64,000 nucleotides of DNA from Fodinibius halophilus. GTDB lineage: Bacteria; Bacteroidota; Rhodothermia; Balneolales; Balneolaceae. The DNA is taken from contig NZ_JAALLS010000013.1 of the NCBI RefSeq assembly GCF_011059105.1, forward strand, positions 36,893-100,892, given 5' to 3'. The notes under the pieces were generated by a model, which did not search any database, had not been told where the DNA came from, and saw only the letters and a program-made list of their open reading frames with translations. This document shows positions 8,337 through 63,620 of this stretch, one piece after another (positions within the stretch are counted from its first letter, which is position 1; every line of letters starts with the position of its first letter). A program made the translations under genes and the position numbers.

Positions 8337-11300
8337 TTACATATTGCGTCGATATTGCCCGCCTACTTCGTAAAGCGCCTGAGAAATCTGTCCCAATGAA
8401 GCAACTTTCACCGTCTCCATCAGCTCCTCAAACGTATTACCGTTATTTCGGGCAACCTCTTTCAGGCGTTCGATAGCTTCCTCGGCCTCAGGTTCATTAC
8501 GCTTCCAAAACGCTTCCAGGCTCTCAATCTGCTGCTCTTTCTCCTGTTTGGTAGAACGGATAAGATCAACTTCTTTCTCCTCTTCCTCGCTGTCAACATC
8601 CTCATTCTGGAAGGTATTAACCCCAATAATCGGTTTCTCTCCACTATGCTTCTTGGATTCATAATGCAGACTTTCATCCTGTATTTTTCCACGTTGATAC
8701 ATGTTTTCCATAGCACCAAGTACGCCACCTCGTTCTGTGAGACGGTCAAATTCAGACAAGATTGCCTCCTCAACAAGGTCCGTCATCTCTTCGATGAAAT
8801 ACGAACCCTGATTGATATTTTCATTTTTGGCAGTCCCCATCTCTTTGTTGATAATCAGCTGTATCGCCAACGCGCGCCGTACCGACTCTTCGGTAGGCGT
8901 AGTAATGGCCTCATCATAAGCATTGGTATGCAAAGAGTTGCAGTTATCATAGATCGCCAACAGTGCCTGCAGGGTGGTTCGGATATCATTAAACTGGATT
9001 TCCTGGGCGTGCAATGATCGTCCACTGGTCTGGATATGATACTTAAGCTTTTGGGAGCGCTTGTTTGCCCCATACTTTTCACGCATAGCCACGGCCCAAA
9101 TACGTCGGGCTACTCGTCCGATAACAGCATACTCCGGATCAAGCCCATTACTGAAAAAGAATGAGAGGTTATGAGCAAACTTGTCGATATCCATCCCTCG
9201 CGAGAGATAGTACTCTACATAGGTAAAACCATTAGCCAGCGTAAAAGCAGCTTGCGTAATAGGATTGGCCCCGGCCTCAGCAATATGATAACCTGAAATA
9301 GAAACCGAGTAATAGTTTCTTACTTCATGATTCGTAAAATACTGCTGGATATCCCCCATCATCTTAAGCGCAAACTCTGTTGAAAAGATACAGGTGTTTT
9401 GGGCCTGATCTTCTTTCAGGATATCGGCCTGTACGGTACCGCGTACCACGGAAAGTGTCTTCTCTTTAATCTCTTCATAGACGTCATCGTCAACCAGTTT
9501 ATCGCCTGTTATACCTAACAGTCCCAATCCAAACTCATCATTAGTATCGGGCAGCTCACCGTTATATTGTGGCTCTTCTACATCTCGCTCATCAAAATAA
9601 GCTTTAATCTTCTTTTGAGCTTCTTCCCACTTACCATTCTCTTTGAGGTATCGCTCAATCTCCTGGTCAATAGCCGTATTCATAAACATCGCCAATATCA
9701 TAGGCGCAGGACCGTTGATCGTCATCGATACCGATGTTTTTCGGGAAGTAAGCTCAAACCCCGAATACAGCTTCTTCATATCATCCAGCGTACAAATGCT
9801 GACTCCCGAATTCCCGACTTTCCCATAAATATCGGGACGATGATCCGGGTCCTCGCCATAGAGCGTCACCGAATCAAAAGCAGTAGACAATCGGGCCGCC
9901 GGCATACCTTCGCTGAGATAGTGGAACCGTTTATTTGTACGCTCGGGCGTCCCCTCTCCGGCAAACATACGAGTGGGATCTTCGCCTTCGCGTTTAAACT
10001 CAAAGACTCCTGCCGTAAATGGATAGTAGCCCGGCAGATTTTCTTTGAGTGCAAACTTCAGTTGTTCTCCTTTGTGATCAGTCTTTGGCAGGGCTACCCG
10101 CGGTATTTCAAGTCCGCTGAGCGATTCTCTAAACATCTTATTTTTGAATGTACGGTCGCGAACCTGTACCTCTACATAATCTTGTCGGTACTCTTCATAG
10201 AGCTTGTCCCAGCCTTCCAGGATCTTCTTACAGCGCAAATCCAGCTTACTCAACCAGTGCTCACGCATTGTCTCGAGGCGATCCTCGAAATCATTGGTTC
10301 CATCGGGATCCCAACGTTCGAGTTGTCCGAGCGTACCCTCCACTTCATCCAGTTTGCTGGCAATTTCGGACTGATTTTCTGCCCAGCTGTGATAGTCACG
10401 GATACTTTCGGAAATCTCTGATAAATATCGCTGCCGTTTACCGGGGATAATCGCTTGCGCCTGAATGTCTTCAGCAGGTTCAGGATTATTGTAGAGCTCG
10501 GTTTCCCAGTTCAGACTATAATGTGCATTAACCTTGTTTACTAGTGCCTTAAAAAGTCGATTTACGCCCTCATCATTAAATTGAGCCGCAATTGTTGGAT
10601 ATACCGGCATATCATCGGCATCCATATTCCAAGCACCGCGATTACGCTTGATCTGCTTACGAACATCGCGAAGGGCATCCAGTGATCCTTTCTTTTCAAA
10701 TTTATTAAGTACAACCAGTTCGGCCAGATCAAGCATATTAATCTTCTCGAGTTGGGTAGCCGCACCGTACTCACTGGTCATTACATACATGGGGATATCA
10801 GAAATATTCACTATCTCTGTATCGCTCTGTCCAATACCGCTTGTTTCTACAATAACCAGATCAAAACCGGCGGTTTTGCACACTTCTATCGCTCCTTTTA
10901 CCGAGAGGCTTGTTGCACGGTTGCTGGCCCGGGTCGCCAAACTGCGCATAAATACCCGGTCGGGCTCAATACTGTTCATGCGGATACGATCACCCAGCAA
11001 GGCACCGCCCGTACGCACCTTAGACGGATCAATAGAGATAACAGCCAAATTAATATCTTCAAACTCTGTTAAGAATCGTCGCACCAGCTCATCCGTCAGA
11101 GAACTTTTCCCGGCCCCACCGGTCCCTGTGATTCCGATTAATGGAATGGGGTGACCATTTTTCTGATCAGGGATGGGATTACCTTTGCCATCAAATAGTT
11201 TGTCATCTTCGAATTTTATAATCTCTTCATGGTCATTTTCCAAGGCAGAAATGCATCGCGCCAACGTTTTGGTATCACGGTCAGCAATTTTCTGAACATT

Positions 11301-11831
11301 CACCGGCTCCACTTCAGCGGTATCGTAATCACATTTTTCGAGCATGAAGTTAATCATCCCCTGCAGTCCCATCTCACTACCGTCTTCGACCGAAAAGATG
11401 CGGCAAACTCCGGCATCGTGCAGCTCCTCAATCTCATCTCCCACAATAACACCGCCGCCACCGCCAAATACGTGGATATGCCCGGCACCTCGTTCTTCCA
11501 ACAGATCAACCATATATTTAAAATACTCCATATGGCCGCCCTGGTACGAACTGATGGCAATACCCTGCACATCTTCTTGTATAGCACAGTCAACAATTTC
11601 TTGCACCGAGCGGTTATGTCCCAAGTGAATGACTTCGGCACCGCTGCTCTGTAAAATACGACGCATAATATTTATGCTGGCGTCGTGGCCGTCAAACAAA
11701 CTGGCAGCTGTTACAAAGCGTATCTTATGATCTGCATCATACACTTTCGGGCGTTCATCTGCAGTAGCAGAGGATTCCGCGGGAACAGCTGATTTATTCG
11801 TCTGTGAGGATGTTGCTGTATCTTTGGACAT
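8337..11831 (-). CDS. icmF: fused isobutyryl-CoA mutase (B12-binding, GTPase and mutase domains)
   Basis: A 1164-residue protein from the ATG at 11831. The same frame stays open to 12065, but that extension runs into the end of the mprF-like gene and lacks resemblance. Domain order: B12-binding domain with DGHDAS (Asp47, His49) at about 35-165; MeaB/ArgK-type G-protein chaperone domain with P-loop GTGGAGKS (236-243); linker; then the TIM-barrel mutase domain (about 600-1120, including [10 protein letters not shown] and [10 protein letters not shown]). This arrangement is IcmF, an adenosylcobalamin enzyme interconverting isobutyryl-CoA and n-butyryl-CoA, sometimes also pivalyl-CoA/isovaleryl-CoA. 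Ordinary methylmalonyl-CoA mutase is excluded by the fused GTPase. It is the last gene of a minus-strand cluster, 107 nt after the mprF-like gene. No cobalamin riboswitch was seen. Confidence 0.93.
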
Positions 11832-11938
11832 AGCAAAAGTTTCTTTAGAAGTGTCGGTTCTTAACCCTAGAATGTAATAAATTTGTGGGATTTTTTGCAG
11901 CTTTCTACAATCTTTAACGATTTGCGGCCACTGATCAT

Positions 11939-14506
11939 TTATTTTGAATCTGGAGGGGTATTGCGTATAAAATGTGCATAACCGCTGGAAACAACATTGG
12001 TCAGGTGAGAAATAATACGTGGCAGCGCCCATCCACCGGGACAAACCAGGAACCGAGCCTCCCACTCGGGATTAAATTTACTCTTGTAGGTTCGTGCCCT
12101 TTTAAAACCGTAAAAATTCTCTCCGTAGGTATATACAAATTTGGCCAGTTTACTCCATCCGGGAGAATAATCGTGTTCATCCATCCCCGATAATGGAGCC
12201 ATCCCTAAATTAAAATACTGATACCCATTTTCTTTTCCCCAAAACATAGTGCGGACTAAAATAAAGTCAATAATGCTAATCGGTATCCCCGGCTGATAGC
12301 GAAGTAGATCTACGGCCAGTTCTTCATTATTTGCACCGGAAAGTATATTTGCAAACCCCACTAATTCATCATCTTTTTTAACGATAGCAATGGGAAATTG
12401 CTGTATATATTTCTTACTGAACTGTCCCACAGAAAAACCGCGCTCTTCTCGGTCTTTATCATTCAAATATGCCTTTGATATGGTGCAAAAGTCATCATAG
12501 TTATTTTCCAGGTATCTTTTTCCTACCACCTCAAATTTATAACCGGCATATTCCATGCTTTCAACATTCTTTTGTACCGGTGGCTCAAGACGTTTATCCA
12601 GATCGAAATCAGCCAGGGGTATAAGCGCTTCTTCCCCGATTTTGAATAATGTGAGTCCCAGGTCAACATAATATTCCAGATAGTTACTACTTACCTTATA
12701 AAAGACCGGCCACTTATCATCATTGGTACAATCTTCGTGGAATTCCCAGATCATCTCTTCAATCTCTTGCTGTGGCCCTATGGGGTCTCCCAGGGCGATA
12801 ATACTTCGCGATTCTCGGGTAAACATAATAAATCCGTTTTCCGGCTCATTAATCACCAACTCTTTATCACCGGACAGGGCTAAGTTTGCTATTGCATTGC
12901 CATGATTTTGAAGAACCTGCTGTGCAATTTCTAACTCTTCGAGGTCGGGCTTGCCAAAAGCTTGTCGTCGGGGGCGCAACAATTTAACCAGCCCCACTAT
13001 AATGGCAAAGCCCAAGGCTGCAACAGTTGCCCGTAAATATCGGGGGGCATCGCCCATCAATGTAAACTCCCACCAAAGCTCTTTTTGATACTCTACATGG
13101 CGGTAAGAAAATACGCCCAACCACACCGCACTTGCCAGCACCATCAAAATGAGGGTAAACCAACGTCCCGAAAATGACTGGCTAAACAGGGGAGCTTTAC
13201 GATGAAATTCCGTCTTACATGGAACCAGGGCCACCAGCATAATGGCTAATATGATGGCCTCCTCATAATCTGCCCCTTTTAGTATAGAGAATATTATGCC
13301 AAATGTGAGCAACCCGATGGTTGCATGATAGGCACCGTCAATGCGACGCTGCAACGCGCCTGCCAGTACCAGCAAGGCTGCTCCTACCAAAGAAGCAAAG
13401 AAATGCGACATCTCAATAACAGGAAGTGGAATAAAGTGTTGCAGCCACTGCATGCGGGGGACCTCCGACGGTAATGCCCCTGAAAACAGCAGTATAGCCC
13501 CACCAATAAAAATTGAGAAACTCATTACCTGCGGAACTACACGCGGTACCCAATCCAGGGCCTTGTCTTTAAGTGCGTGAACTTTTTTACGATTCACAAC
13601 ATACTCTTGGTATCCCAGTACAATCAAAGCCCCCAGCAGAGGAAGAATGTAATAGATGATACGATAGACTACCAGGATCCCCAGCACTTGTGAACCTTCC
13701 ATAAAATTAGACAGGTAAAGCAACATCACCGACTCAAAAACCCCAAGTCCCCCGGGTACCTGGCTAAAAAGCCCTATAATCTGGGCTAATAAAAAGACCC
13801 CTACAAAGCTGAAAAAACTGACACCTACCTCCGGTAACAATACATACAATACTGAAGCCGCTAACAGCCAATCTACCGAAGCAATAATAACCTGCTTGAG
13901 TGCTAACGTAAGACTCGGAAATTTGAAAGACCATTTTTTAAAAGAGAGCTCTTTTTTTACTACCGCACTGCCCCATACGTAGGCCACGACCATCACCAAT
14001 AAAATAAGACCCAACACCCGAAGAGATACAAAAGGCACTACCACATCAGCAGGCAAGTTGGGAGTTGCAAGAAGCAGCGCAAGCCCTGCCACAGCACAAA
14101 ACCCTATCCAAAGCGTAAATGCACTAAAAGCCACAATCTGGGTTACCTGCATACCCGAAAATCCCCATGCCGAATAAATACGATACCGTATAGATCCCCC
14201 GGTAATAAGGGCCAGCCCAATATTATGGCTAAAAGCATATCCCACATAACCGGCACGTACAATCTTACCCGGGGCTAACTCTTCCCCTATATAATCTACC
14301 CCCAACGCATCATAACCGGTAAGCAGTAAATAGCTTAAAAATGATAATACTAAGGAAAGCCCCACATACAGGTTGGGGATTTCACTAAGTTGAGCGGTTA
14401 TCTCAGAAAGCTGGTATTGTTGCAGCTTTTGATCTAAAAACCACAGAGCAACCCCAAAAAAGACAATGCTTATAAAAGGCGTTAATTTTTTAAGAACCTT
14501 CTTCAT
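11939..14506 (-). CDS. mprF: MprF-like phosphatidylglycerol lysyltransferase/flippase
   Basis: An 855-residue membrane protein. The N-terminal part (to about residue 500) has about 12-14 hydrophobic segments and the UPF0104-like flippase domain (e.g. [32 protein letters not shown]). The C-terminal 300 residues form the DUF2156 aminoacyl-transferase domain ([49 protein letters not shown]). Known members add lysine or alanine from charged tRNA to phosphatidylglycerol and flip the lipid outward, giving resistance to cationic peptides. Amino-acid specificity cannot be told here. It starts 31 nt after the upstream lipoprotein stop codon, so co-transcription is likely. Confidence 0.9.
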
Positions 14507-38476: not shown

Positions 38477-39091
38477 TTATGCCGAAATTGTTTCCAACTG
38501 AACGTAATTTTCTAATAATTCTTGTAATTGTGCCCTGCCCCGGTTAATACGAGACTTTACCGTACCCATTGGCAGGTCGGCAATTTCAGAGATCTCTTCA
38601 TATGAAAGCTGCTGAATATCACGCAGTACTACGACCTCGCGGAAGTTCTCATTGAGCTCCATAAGTGCATCTTCGAGCTCATTAATGCACATTTTTTCAT
38701 GCAGCGCATCGTCTGCCAATATCTTGCTGTCTTCCAGCTTCATTGGTCGATCTTCAGAATCATCCGGGTCTTTGTGGATGGTTACCTTGGTCATCCGCTT
38801 CTTTTTCTTATAAAGGCTTTTGGCAAGGTTTATGGCGATGGTATACATCCAGGTCGAAAATTTCGCAATCCGCTCATAAGAATGACGGCTTCGAAAAACC
38901 CGGAAAAATGTTTCCTGTACCAAGTCTTCGCAGTCTTGATGATTATGAGTATAGCGATATAAAAAGTTATGCAGACGATCTTGATAGCGATTTACCAACA
39001 GGTTAAAAGCTTCTTCATATCCTGATTGAAATTTTTCCATTAAATCTTCGTCCGACATCTTGTGTAGTTCGGCCTTGGAAACAGCTTGCAT
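38477..39091 (-). CDS. ECF-type RNA polymerase sigma factor
   Basis: A 204-residue sigma-70 family protein from the ATG at 39091 (the frame also reads back to a TTG at 39103). Region 2 (YRYTHNHQDCEDLVQETFFRVFRS... STWMYTIAINLAKSLYKKKKR) and region 4 (LNENFREVVVLRDIQQLSYEEISEIADLPMGTVKSRINRGR) are intact. It belongs to the SigW/RpoE-like ECF group. A -7-like TATTTTTG at 39163-39156 lies just upstream. Confidence 0.93.
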   Translation of the reverse strand: MQAVSKAELHKMSDEDLMEKFQSGYEEAFNLLVNRYQDRLHNFLYRYTHNHQDCEDLVQETFFRVFRSRHSYERIAKFSTWMYTIAINLAKSLYKKKKRMTKVTIHKDPDDSEDRPMKLEDSKILADDALHEKMCINELEDALMELNENFREVVVLRDIQQLSYEEISEIADLPMGTVKSRINRGRAQLQELLENYVQLETISA

Positions 39092-60963: not shown

Positions 60964-61114
60964 AGCATTAAGTAATTGATTTTCTGTTTAGTGAAAGATA
61001 CAAATTTCAAAAGGAATCACAGCCTTAATTTGTAACAAACTTCTCTCTTCTTAACAGTAATTTTACCTTAGGTTCATATACAATACACATGCATATATTA
61101 TGTTATGATTCGTC

Positions 61115-62281
61115 ATGCAAAAATTATCAAACATAGTAACCCATCTACAAAATCGACTTTTTGAGTCGGTTATCTCCAGCAACCTTATCTACAATACCTG
61201 CTGGGAAGATCCCCGAGTAGATCGGCAGCTCCTTGATATCAGCCCGGAGAGTCGTATGGTAATGCTTACCAGTGCGGGCTGCAATGCTTTGGATTACCTG
61301 CTTGATGCTCCCTCCCAGATCCACTGCGTAGATATAAATCCGGCACAAAATGCACTGTTAGAACTAAAAAAAGCTTTTTTTAAAAACAATAACTACCCCC
61401 TGCTCTGGGATTTTTTCGGTACCGGTTCCAAAGACGGCGCCGAGCTAATCTATCATCAACAAATTCAAAAACTGTTACCGGCAAAGCACCGCAGATATTG
61501 GGATAAAAACATCAATTACTTTACCCCCACTTCTGCTTTTCCCAGCTTTTATTTTAGAGGCACCTCCGGCAATGTCGCACGCCTTATCCACAATCACATT
61601 CAGCGCAAGGGACTCTATCCCAAAGTACTGAAGATGCTGAATGCACAAAGCCTGGAAGAGCAAGCCTACTATTTTGAAGAAATTGAACCACAGCTCTGGT
61701 CAACTTTTTCTAAATGGCTGGTTCGTCGCAATGCTACTATGACGATGCTGGGCGTACCGGCAACGCAACGAGATATGATTGAAAGGGAATATCAAGGGGG
61801 CATACTTGACTTTATTCGGCAGTCACTACACCACATTTTTACGAAACTTCCACTGCAAGACAACTATTTTTGGCGGGTTTACTTAACAGGATCTTATAGC
61901 ACGGACTGCTGTCCGAACTATCTACTTGAACGCAACTTTGCCCAGTTGCGAACCCACATAAATAGTATTGAGACGCACACCACCTCCCTTTCTCAATTCT
62001 TAGAACAAAATCCGGGACCCTATTCCCATTTTATTCTGCTTGACCACCAAGACTGGATGGCCAACGCCCAGCCACAACTTCTGAAAGAAGAATGGAAACG
62101 GATTCTTGACAAGGCCCAAAGCGGTGCTAAAATACTATTTCGCTCAGCGGGTCCATCCCTACATTTTCTTCCCGACTTTGTTTACGAATCTGTTGAATTT
62201 TATCCCGAGCAAACCAAATCGTTACATTCCAGAGATCGCGTGGGCACTTATGAATCAACCCATCTGGGGGTTGTACAATAA
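61115..62281 (+). CDS. btaA: BtaA-like diacylglycerol 3-amino-3-carboxypropyltransferase (DUF3419)
   Basis: A 388-residue protein of the DUF3419 family. SNLIYNTCWEDPRVDRQLLDISPES and MLTSAGCNALDYLLDAP...CVDINPAQNALLELK contain the Rossmann-like SAM-binding part, and LLERNFAQLR plus LLDHQDWM recur in BtaA. BtaA transfers the aminocarboxypropyl group of SAM to diacylglycerol to give diacylglyceryl-homoserine. The next gene is a methyltransferase whose start overlaps its stop by 1 nt, exactly the btaA-btaB arrangement for betaine lipid DGTS. Confidence 0.88.
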   Translation: MQKLSNIVTHLQNRLFESVISSNLIYNTCWEDPRVDRQLLDISPESRMVMLTSAGCNALDYLLDAPSQIHCVDINPAQNALLELKKAFFKNNNYPLLWDFFGTGSKDGAELIYHQQIQKLLPAKHRRYWDKNINYFTPTSAFPSFYFRGTSGNVARLIHNHIQRKGLYPKVLKMLNAQSLEEQAYYFEEIEPQLWSTFSKWLVRRNATMTMLGVPATQRDMIEREYQGGILDFIRQSLHHIFTKLPLQDNYFWRVYLTGSYSTDCCPNYLLERNFAQLRTHINSIETHTTSLSQFLEQNPGPYSHFILLDHQDWMANAQPQLLKEEWKRILDKAQSGAKILFRSAGPSLHFLPDFVYESVEFYPEQTKSLHSRDRVGTYESTHLGVVQ

Positions 62282-62916
62282 TGGAAATACAAGGTACCTA
62301 TACTGACCATTCGCACGACACCAATGTAGAAAAGTACTACCGCTTCCACTCCCGTATCTATGACGCTACGCGCTGGAGCTTTCTGTTTGGCCGCGATCAG
62401 CTGCTCGATATGATTCCGGTCCTGCCCTCACAACCTCGCATCCTGGAAGTGGGCTGCGGTACCGGTAAAAACCTGGACCGCTTGCAATATCATTTTCCCG
62501 ATGCCCACCTTGTAGGTGTTGATCTCTCCCCTGCAATGCTTAATATTGCCAGAAACAAGTTGAGCGACACCAAACAAGTTGAACTTGTACAAGCGAAGTA
62601 TGGTTCTGAAGAACTGAATTTAGAACCTTTTGACCTTATTCTCTTCTCCTATTCTCTTACGATGTTTGCCGATGGCATTGAAGATATTATGGCACAAGTC
62701 TCAAAAGATCTTAATAAGCGTGGATATGTTGCTGTTGTTGATTTTAATACTTCCCCCTATAAATGGTTTCGACAGTGGATGGGCATGAACCATGTTGACC
62801 TTAACGGCCATATTTTACCGCTGCTCAATAAATATTACCGCCCAGTAGAAACACAAAAAGATGATGCCTACCTGGGGTTATGGTCTTATTTTAAATTTAT
62901 TGGCCAGTATACCTAA
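62281..62916 (+). CDS. btaB: BtaB-like SAM-dependent methyltransferase
   Basis: A 211-residue class I methyltransferase with SAM motif I ILEVGCGTGKNLDRL (about 55-69) and VGVDLSPAMLNIAR. It starts at the stop codon of btaA (overlap of one nt), so it is translationally coupled. BtaB trimethylates the amino group of diacylglyceryl-homoserine to make DGTS. The assignment rests mainly on coupling to btaA. Confidence 0.85.
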   Translation: MEIQGTYTDHSHDTNVEKYYRFHSRIYDATRWSFLFGRDQLLDMIPVLPSQPRILEVGCGTGKNLDRLQYHFPDAHLVGVDLSPAMLNIARNKLSDTKQVELVQAKYGSEELNLEPFDLILFSYSLTMFADGIEDIMAQVSKDLNKRGYVAVVDFNTSPYKWFRQWMGMNHVDLNGHILPLLNKYYRPVETQKDDAYLGLWSYFKFIGQYT

Positions 62917-62993: not shown

Positions 62994-63620
62994 ATGGAAC
63001 AGATCAAACAACAGATTTCTGAGATACAAGACGAACTTCAAGAATCCCCCAAAGATGCCCAGCTTTTAAACGAACTTGGCGTGGGGCATCATATGCTGGG
63101 AGAATACGACAAAGCCGTTGAAGCTTACCAGCAATCGCTGGCGCAAGACCCCGATAACTTCAAGGTGCACTTCAACCTGGGCAATACCTTTTATGAGCAG
63201 AAAAATATCGAGAAGGCCGTTAACCACTATCTCAATGCCCTCGATATCCAGCCCGATTATGTACCCGCCCTTAATAACCTGGCGGATGTATATGAGTTGG
63301 CAGAAGATGAAGAGCGAGCGCTGGAGCTTTTTGAATATATCACCAAGATTAAGCCCGAAGATCCTATGGGATACTTTAATCTTGGCAATTTTCATCTCCG
63401 TTGTAATAACACTGCAGAAGCGGGTCGATGCTATAAGCTGGCTATAGAACAGGATCCCGAATTTTACGAAGCGTATAATAACATCGGCTTTATCTTAAAG
63501 CATCTGCAGGAGTATGAAGAAGCGATCTCTTATTTTGAGCAGTGCCTGGAAATAGCCCCGGATTATGAACCGGCAAAAAGAGATTTGGCTGCCTGTAAAG
63601 AAGCGTTAGCTGATGCCTAA
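62994..63620 (+). CDS. tetratricopeptide repeat protein
   Basis: A 208-residue soluble protein made of about six TPR units (e.g. LLNELGVGHHMLGEYDKAVEAYQQSLAQDPDN, KVHFNLGNTFYEQKNIEKAVNHYLNALDIQPDY, EAYNNIGFILKHLQEYEEAISYFEQCLEIAPDY). No signal peptide. TPR proteins mediate protein contacts; a partner cannot be inferred. It lies 77 nt after btaB in the same direction. Confidence 0.88.
   Translation: MEQIKQQISEIQDELQESPKDAQLLNELGVGHHMLGEYDKAVEAYQQSLAQDPDNFKVHFNLGNTFYEQKNIEKAVNHYLNALDIQPDYVPALNNLADVYELAEDEERALELFEYITKIKPEDPMGYFNLGNFHLRCNNTAEAGRCYKLAIEQDPEFYEAYNNIGFILKHLQEYEEAISYFEQCLEIAPDYEPAKRDLAACKEALADA

Follow-up and report, generated by a model that had tools for sequence, protein, structure and literature searches.

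The window, by which we mean the whole stretch of 64,000 nucleotides of Fodinibius halophilus DNA that was analysed, contains a DUF3419 gene followed directly by a methyltransferase gene. This arrangement raises the question of which lipid the gene pair serves to make, and under what control. Our results indicate that btaA-btaB is very probably an operon for the synthesis of the phosphorus-free betaine lipid DGTS in Fodinibius-like Balneolaceae; both reactions and the DGTS product were inferred from homology. The pathway is a well-conserved, known betaine-lipid operon, and what is new is the lineage: our literature search, which covered few subscription texts and some sources only in part, found no report of betaine lipids or btaA in Balneolota, enzyme and lipid data included. 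The NCBI taxonomy places Fodinibius in the Balneolaceae of the Balneolota, and the earlier note on this DNA, which had called the genome Bacteroidota-like, was right in the wide sense.

Gene organization and predicted functions

The btaA and btaB genes overlapped by one nucleotide within the sequence TAATG (Table 1), and the coordinates and the overlap described in the earlier note were correct. The pairing of the two genes was not a chance arrangement, since it recurred in 98 of 110 BtaA loci, in which btaB was adjacent and co-directed under the BLAST rule. Among the 12 loci failing this rule, btaB was located further off in L023 and L050, and the adjoining methyltransferase genes were divergent in L091 and L104.

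The Pfam profile PF11899 (DUF3419) covered the full length of the btaA product (8.5e-110; 368 bits versus a cut-off of 28.2; profile positions 5-382 of 385), and no second DUF3419 protein was found in the 4.19-Mb genome (91 contigs). The btaB product matched Methyltransf_25 with 61.5 bits (Pfam cut-off of 27) and reached no named NCBIfam equivalog at its cut-off. It showed 33% identity to the btaA-adjacent methyltransferase of R. leguminosarum (5e-24) and 30% identity to that of S. meliloti (1e-23). BtaA is therefore a predicted SAM:diacylglycerol 3-amino-3-carboxypropyltransferase, and BtaB a predicted SAM:diacylglycerylhomoserine N-methyltransferase. We also considered a second BtaB copy acting as PmtA, which was rejected, as the other methyltransferases of the genome matched BtaB weakly (1.8e-5 at best).

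The AlphaFold2 model of BtaA (pLDDT 93.3) revealed a core with the SAM-methyltransferase fold, and the best structural match showed a Z-score of 15.3 and an rmsd of 2.7 with 161 aligned residues. Because the listed structural matches were general methyltransferases, the fold is uninformative on the substrate. Foldseek alone returned nothing below an E-value of 0.001 for this model, and phmmer and profile searches against solved structures identified no clear relative (best profile E-value of 0.069).

Table 1. Positions of the features in the window.
Feature	Position	Strand	Description
mprF	11939-14506	-	NF033480 844 bits, cut-off 600; flippase and synthase domains
Candidate Pho box	61051-61089	+	TTAACA-N5-TTTACC-N5-TTCATA-N5-TACACA; four hexamers at an exact 11-bp step
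Possible -7 element	61099-61106	+	TATGTTAT; 9 nt past the last repeat; weak in the window
btaA	61115-62281	+	388 aa; ATG start, stop TAA at 62279-62281; DUF3419
btaB	62281-62916	+	211 aa; SAM-dependent methyltransferase; Methyltransf_25
TPR-repeat protein gene	62994-63620	+	Downstream neighbour; Pfam TPR

Comparison of BtaA with other DUF3419 proteins

For the alignment and the structure input, 49 of 80 BtaA loci were used together with the window, and two plasmid-borne DUF3419 proteins, from Shinella and Rhizobium, served as the contrast set; one of the two has an annotated neighbourhood, which is a different gene cluster. Among the 47 positions invariant in these 50 relatives, 33-35 were kept in three alphaproteobacterial BtaAs, while only 19-21 were kept in the two contrast proteins. 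The W30-E31-D32 motif of the window BtaA was absent from both contrast proteins. The subclass without this motif was observed at L113 (4001-4909, plus strand) and L116 (3986-5059, plus strand), and on its plasmid the L116 gene clustered with genes for ketoacyl-ACP synthase III and CoF synthetase.

The tree comprised 64 rows, of which 58 came from the 110 BtaA loci, five from plasmid loci and one from the window; it was a quick tree from a short search rooted on the distant contrast pair as a two-row outgroup, and its reading is limited by this rooting and search. The long branches of L028 and L030 are unsure, and the S. meliloti locus L111, in which the btaA match was in two pieces, was omitted. 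A clustering of BtaA with other DUF3419 enzymes, named in the earlier note as the outcome that would speak against its reading, was not seen: a BtaA group of 61 rows (SH-aLRT 95) took in the alphaproteobacterial BtaAs and left out the contrast pair. The Balneolaceae BtaAs, including that of the window, formed one group (20 rows, SH-aLRT 90) adjoining Bacteroidota and a mixed group with Verrucomicrobiota and Thermodesulfobacteriota. The alphaproteobacterial BtaAs (Shinella, Rhizobium and Sinorhizobium sp.), to which the window BtaA showed 28-31% identity, grouped with two relatives of the same class as Fodinibius, L011 and L013 (SH-aLRT 99). On the best reading of these data, Balneolaceae btaA would have been inherited within the family and would not be a recent alphaproteobacterial import.

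The alphaproteobacterial-type BtaA of the two same-class relatives (L011, 1486-2727; L013, about 1348-2637) suggests a transfer separate from the Balneolaceae gene. In Sinorhizobium meliloti Ak57 (L111, 4001-5139, plus strand), no CDS was annotated over the split match, and for these two reasons the record may contain a broken or misassembled gene.

Distribution and gene neighbourhood

DUF3419 was found in 45 of the 394 genomes of the phylum sample, including all eight of the genus (our own included) and 28 of the 45 listed family members. Among the matches listed, the nearest named BtaAs were from uncultured Aliifodinibius and Fodinibius sediminis (59-63% identity). The named collection held at least 589 BtaA relatives, and the 80 that were kept came from Saprospiraceae and other Bacteroidota, Verrucomicrobiota, Planctomycetota, Desulfobacteraceae, Competibacteraceae and others. 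The statement that the pair is best known from Alphaproteobacteria and algae holds for the literature consulted, but BtaA itself is also common in Saprospiraceae, Verrucomicrobiota, Planctomycetota and other groups. The TPR-repeat gene was located near btaB in all 12 Fodinibius-group loci (L001-L008, L010 and L031-L033, where L031 duplicates L005) and was not reported in the other 98 loci.

Several loci outside the window showed other arrangements. In Flexithrix and a relative (L046, 3992-6425; L062, 3992-6414; plus strand), a calcineurin-like phosphoesterase gene (identified by Pfam in L046) was located just downstream of btaA, and no btaB homologue was found within about 4 kb. At L193 (560-2625, plus strand), an unfused BtaA-like gene shared 4 nt with the end of a gene for phosphatidylserine decarboxylase, and no btaB was evident among the ORFs listed in the locus.

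The most unusual finding, more so than the window operon, is a PEMT-BtaA fusion outside the window. This protein of 620-627 aa, composed of an N-terminal PEMT-type phospholipid methyltransferase (Pfam match in two of three at 1e-5) and a DUF3419/BtaA part, was present in three of 80 genomes of family f42 (L028, 1432-3294; L191, 1501-3360; L192, 1495-3378; all minus strand) and was conserved over its full length at 56-84%. No BtaB was found in the 4-kb locus L028, and a diacylglycerol-kinase-like gene adjoined the fusion in L192. The fusion may be a betaine-lipid synthase in which an unrelated methyltransferase replaces BtaB; a literature search for BtaA with PEMT, in sources seen partly as excerpts, returned no report of such a fusion.

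Candidate Pho box upstream of btaA

The earlier note had recognised no Pho-box-like site upstream of btaA. A candidate is present there (Table 1), which we regard as likely but unproven. Hexamers at an 11-bp step, of a TTWACA-like class, were seen in upstream regions of btaA in the genus. Repeats of the TTAACA type are similar to Bacillus PhoP boxes. The pst operon of the genome was intact (pstS, two permease genes, an ATPase gene and phoU), and its pstS was preceded by TTAATA-N5-TTAACA. Fifteen pstS promoters, our own included, showed TTAAYA-N5-TTAACA-like pairs, which in two promoters extended into longer arrays, and the scoring matrix was trained solely on the 30 hexamers of these promoters (L147, where the locus ended within the upstream region, was dropped, and L156-L158 were unused). 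No clear box was visible by eye at the second PstS-like gene (L138). The sequence TATGTTAT is a possible -7 element of the TAnnTTTG consensus type. By eye, its 9-nt spacing from the repeats recurred in L004, L006, L008 and L032, and at pstS, TACCTTTG is located 9 nt past a TTCCAC hexamer.

Against 200 shuffles, the window box was significant with three repeats (p 0.015) and four repeats (p 0.005), and not with two (p 0.07). Of the 45 regions scored upstream of genes in the window, that of btaA ranked first, narrowly with three repeats (13.5 versus 13.1) and with a clear lead over the next region with four (13.9 versus 3.0). The matrix also yields false hits, and the best four-repeat score of the window (17.9) belonged to an intragenic site at 38981-39019 (plus strand). 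Genome-wide, a box pattern gave 30 matches versus 21 for a reversed control with btaA as the sole one-mismatch match, a weak result because the pattern was partly derived from btaA upstream regions.

Seven of 11 Fodinibius-group orthologues carried the box at -62 to -65 (four-repeat p of 0.010 or less; L031 was dropped as a duplicate of L005), and by the pstS matrix it was absent from the other four (L002, L005, L007 and L033). Fodinibius sediminis DSM 21194 carries both the gene pair and the box. As L002, L007 and L033 form one tree group (95), a single loss would suffice for them; L005 is outside the rows of the tree. In the 16 other Balneolaceae loci (L014-L030 without L028), only L021 scored below 0.05 (p 0.035, weak hexamers), and p was also below 0.05 in two Saprospiraceae-type loci (L036 and L041) and in Tenacibaculum L084. 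Tentatively, and with rather less than even confidence, we propose that the Fodinibius DGTS operon is under a TTWACA-type Pho box of 11-bp repeats, which the ancestor of the genus group already had and which disappeared in a single loss from the L002/L007/L033 subclade, probably with L005.

Membrane lipids and MprF

The mprF-like gene that the earlier note placed about 47 kb from btaA is genuine by its NF033480 score; the distance is 46.6 kb, and the gene is unlinked to the operon. MprF exceeded the cut-off in 14 of 394 genomes, namely the eight of the genus, one other genome of its family (G368) and five of family f28, all five of which were without DUF3419. Among the 28 listed BtaA-bearing genomes of the family, MprF reached the cut-off in nine (eight of one genus and one of a neighbour genus). 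The co-occurrence of btaA and mprF looks like shared ancestry, not linkage. Beside mprF, the window contained a 1242-aa frame at 8337-12065 (minus strand), the called start of which overlapped the mprF end; it joins B12-binding, MeaB GTPase and methylmalonyl-CoA mutase domains and is presumably an IcmF-like fusion.

The genome encoded PssA, which scored 127 bits (cut-off 107), and two PgsA-like proteins, which with 103 and 79 bits fell short of the cut-off of 109.1. It also encoded a Pcs-like protein, which matched five phosphatidylcholine synthase models with 118-165 bits, all below the cut-offs of 300-440. In the accessible part of a published description, which includes TLC for a new strain, the survey table gives DPG, PC and PE for Fodinibius species with data, and the TLC profile of Fodinibius alkaliphilus names no betaine lipid, with unidentified lipids and aminolipids remaining (PMC12260241). 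A misreading of DGTS as the PC spot was rejected because a Pcs-like gene is present and the paper, in that same part, counts PC as a phospholipid. PC in Fodinibius is thus likely real.

Proposed pathway and alternative explanations

In the proposed pathway, BtaA would move the 3-amino-3-carboxypropyl group of SAM onto diacylglycerol to give diacylglycerylhomoserine, and BtaB would trimethylate this intermediate with SAM as the methyl donor to give DGTS. The diacylglycerol would probably come from phospholipid turnover. In the planctomycete locus L091, the gene order is phosphoesterase, btaA and divergent btaB, which is the order reported for Phaeobacter plcP-btaA-btaB. A 35% relative of the L091 phosphoesterase (9.5e-43) was found in our genome at C17:45894; it matched Metallophos with 46 bits and LpxH-type equivalogs with 63.3 and 51.7 bits, below their cut-offs of 134 and 190. 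Matches to the L091 protein were found in 27 of 28 genomes searched, some of a weaker class only and several in families without a listed BtaA. No Pho box was found upstream of our own PlcP-like gene (p 0.16), and two of four relatives scored for the box (p 0.005 and 0.015).

A PhoB/PhoP-type regulator would induce btaAB at low phosphate, a step read solely from the promoter motif. We consider it somewhat probable that low phosphate induces btaAB and that DGTS would then replace the zwitterionic lipids PC and PE. The chief alternative is constitutive DGTS synthesis without phosphate control, in which the lipid would take the place of choline-dependent PC or serve salt tolerance. Pcs-type PC synthesis requires choline, and the PC route of this genome is Pcs-like; Fodinibius are halophiles, and four species are without the box. 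Nevertheless, the box recurs at the same position in seven of 11 orthologues and belongs to the repeat class of the pstS promoters, and we regard constitutive synthesis as unlikely, though deserving of weight. The earlier note had instead read btaAB and mprF together as two routes for changing headgroup charge. Both occur in all eight sampled congeners, but in 19 of the 28 BtaA-bearing genomes listed for the family no MprF exceeds the cut-off, and the consulted part of the literature describes DGTS as zwitterionic and as interchangeable with PC (PMC3972451). Being zwitterionic like the PC and PE it would replace, DGTS would save phosphorus and would not change charge, which leaves the two-route reading very improbable.

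The substrate itself could also differ. The low identity to the alphaproteobacterial enzymes and the separate tree branch make a changed acceptor conceivable, for example an ether or acyl-ether glycerol, in which case the pair would make a DGTS-like lipid other than DGTS. We judge this improbable, as the alphaproteobacterial BtaAs share 33-35 of the 47 core invariant residues and no pointer to ether lipids was noticed in the window. A transfer of the aminocarboxypropyl group in a non-lipid pathway is the least probable of the readings: a second DUF3419 subclass does occur on Shinella and Rhizobium plasmids, and the annotated Rhizobium case adjoins ketoacyl-ACP synthase, oxidoreductase, MBL-fold and CoF-synthetase genes, but this subclass is outside the BtaA group and has no WED motif, whereas the window gene retains its btaB partner.

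If the box history proposed above is true, DGTS would be confined to phosphate scarcity in some Fodinibius species and constitutive in others, and box-bearing and boxless species would form a natural pair for testing the role of DGTS in halophiles. DGTS may then already be among the unidentified TLC spots of described Fodinibius species. It is often taken as an algal or alphaproteobacterial marker, which would be unsafe in hypersaline soil or brine if a common lineage of these habitats makes it. With this operon, phosphate-controlled DGTS in halophilic Balneolota becomes directly testable.

Comparison with known systems

The BtaA/BtaB systems of S. meliloti and Rhodobacter sphaeroides likewise consist of two adjacent genes, DUF3419 and SAM methyltransferase, and the consulted part of the literature describes S. 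meliloti DGTS as made by BtaA/BtaB and regulated by PhoB (PMC3972451). The window BtaA differs from this type in its identity of 28-31% to the Shinella, Rhizobium and Sinorhizobium sp. enzymes, in its separate branch and in its neighbours, with a TPR gene in Fodinibius. Closer relatives were found in Saprospiraceae, Verrucomicrobiota and Desulfobacteraceae (43-49% identity over nearly the full length), where btaB is mostly adjacent; these belong to other phyla and are without the TPR neighbour. For Desulfatibacillum alkenivorans, betaine lipids under phosphorus limitation are on record, as cited in the portion available of PMC12927429. In Phaeobacter sp. MED193, DGTS appears on phosphorus starvation in a lipid remodelling that involves plcP-btaA-btaB, according to the part seen of PMC4796936. 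The two synthesis genes are common to this system and the window, while the PlcP/LpxH-like phosphoesterase gene of our genome lies elsewhere, on contig C17. Bta1 of algae and fungi has the two domains and the product in common with BtaA/BtaB (PMC10685587, in part), but it is one fused protein, whereas the window encodes the two activities in two genes.
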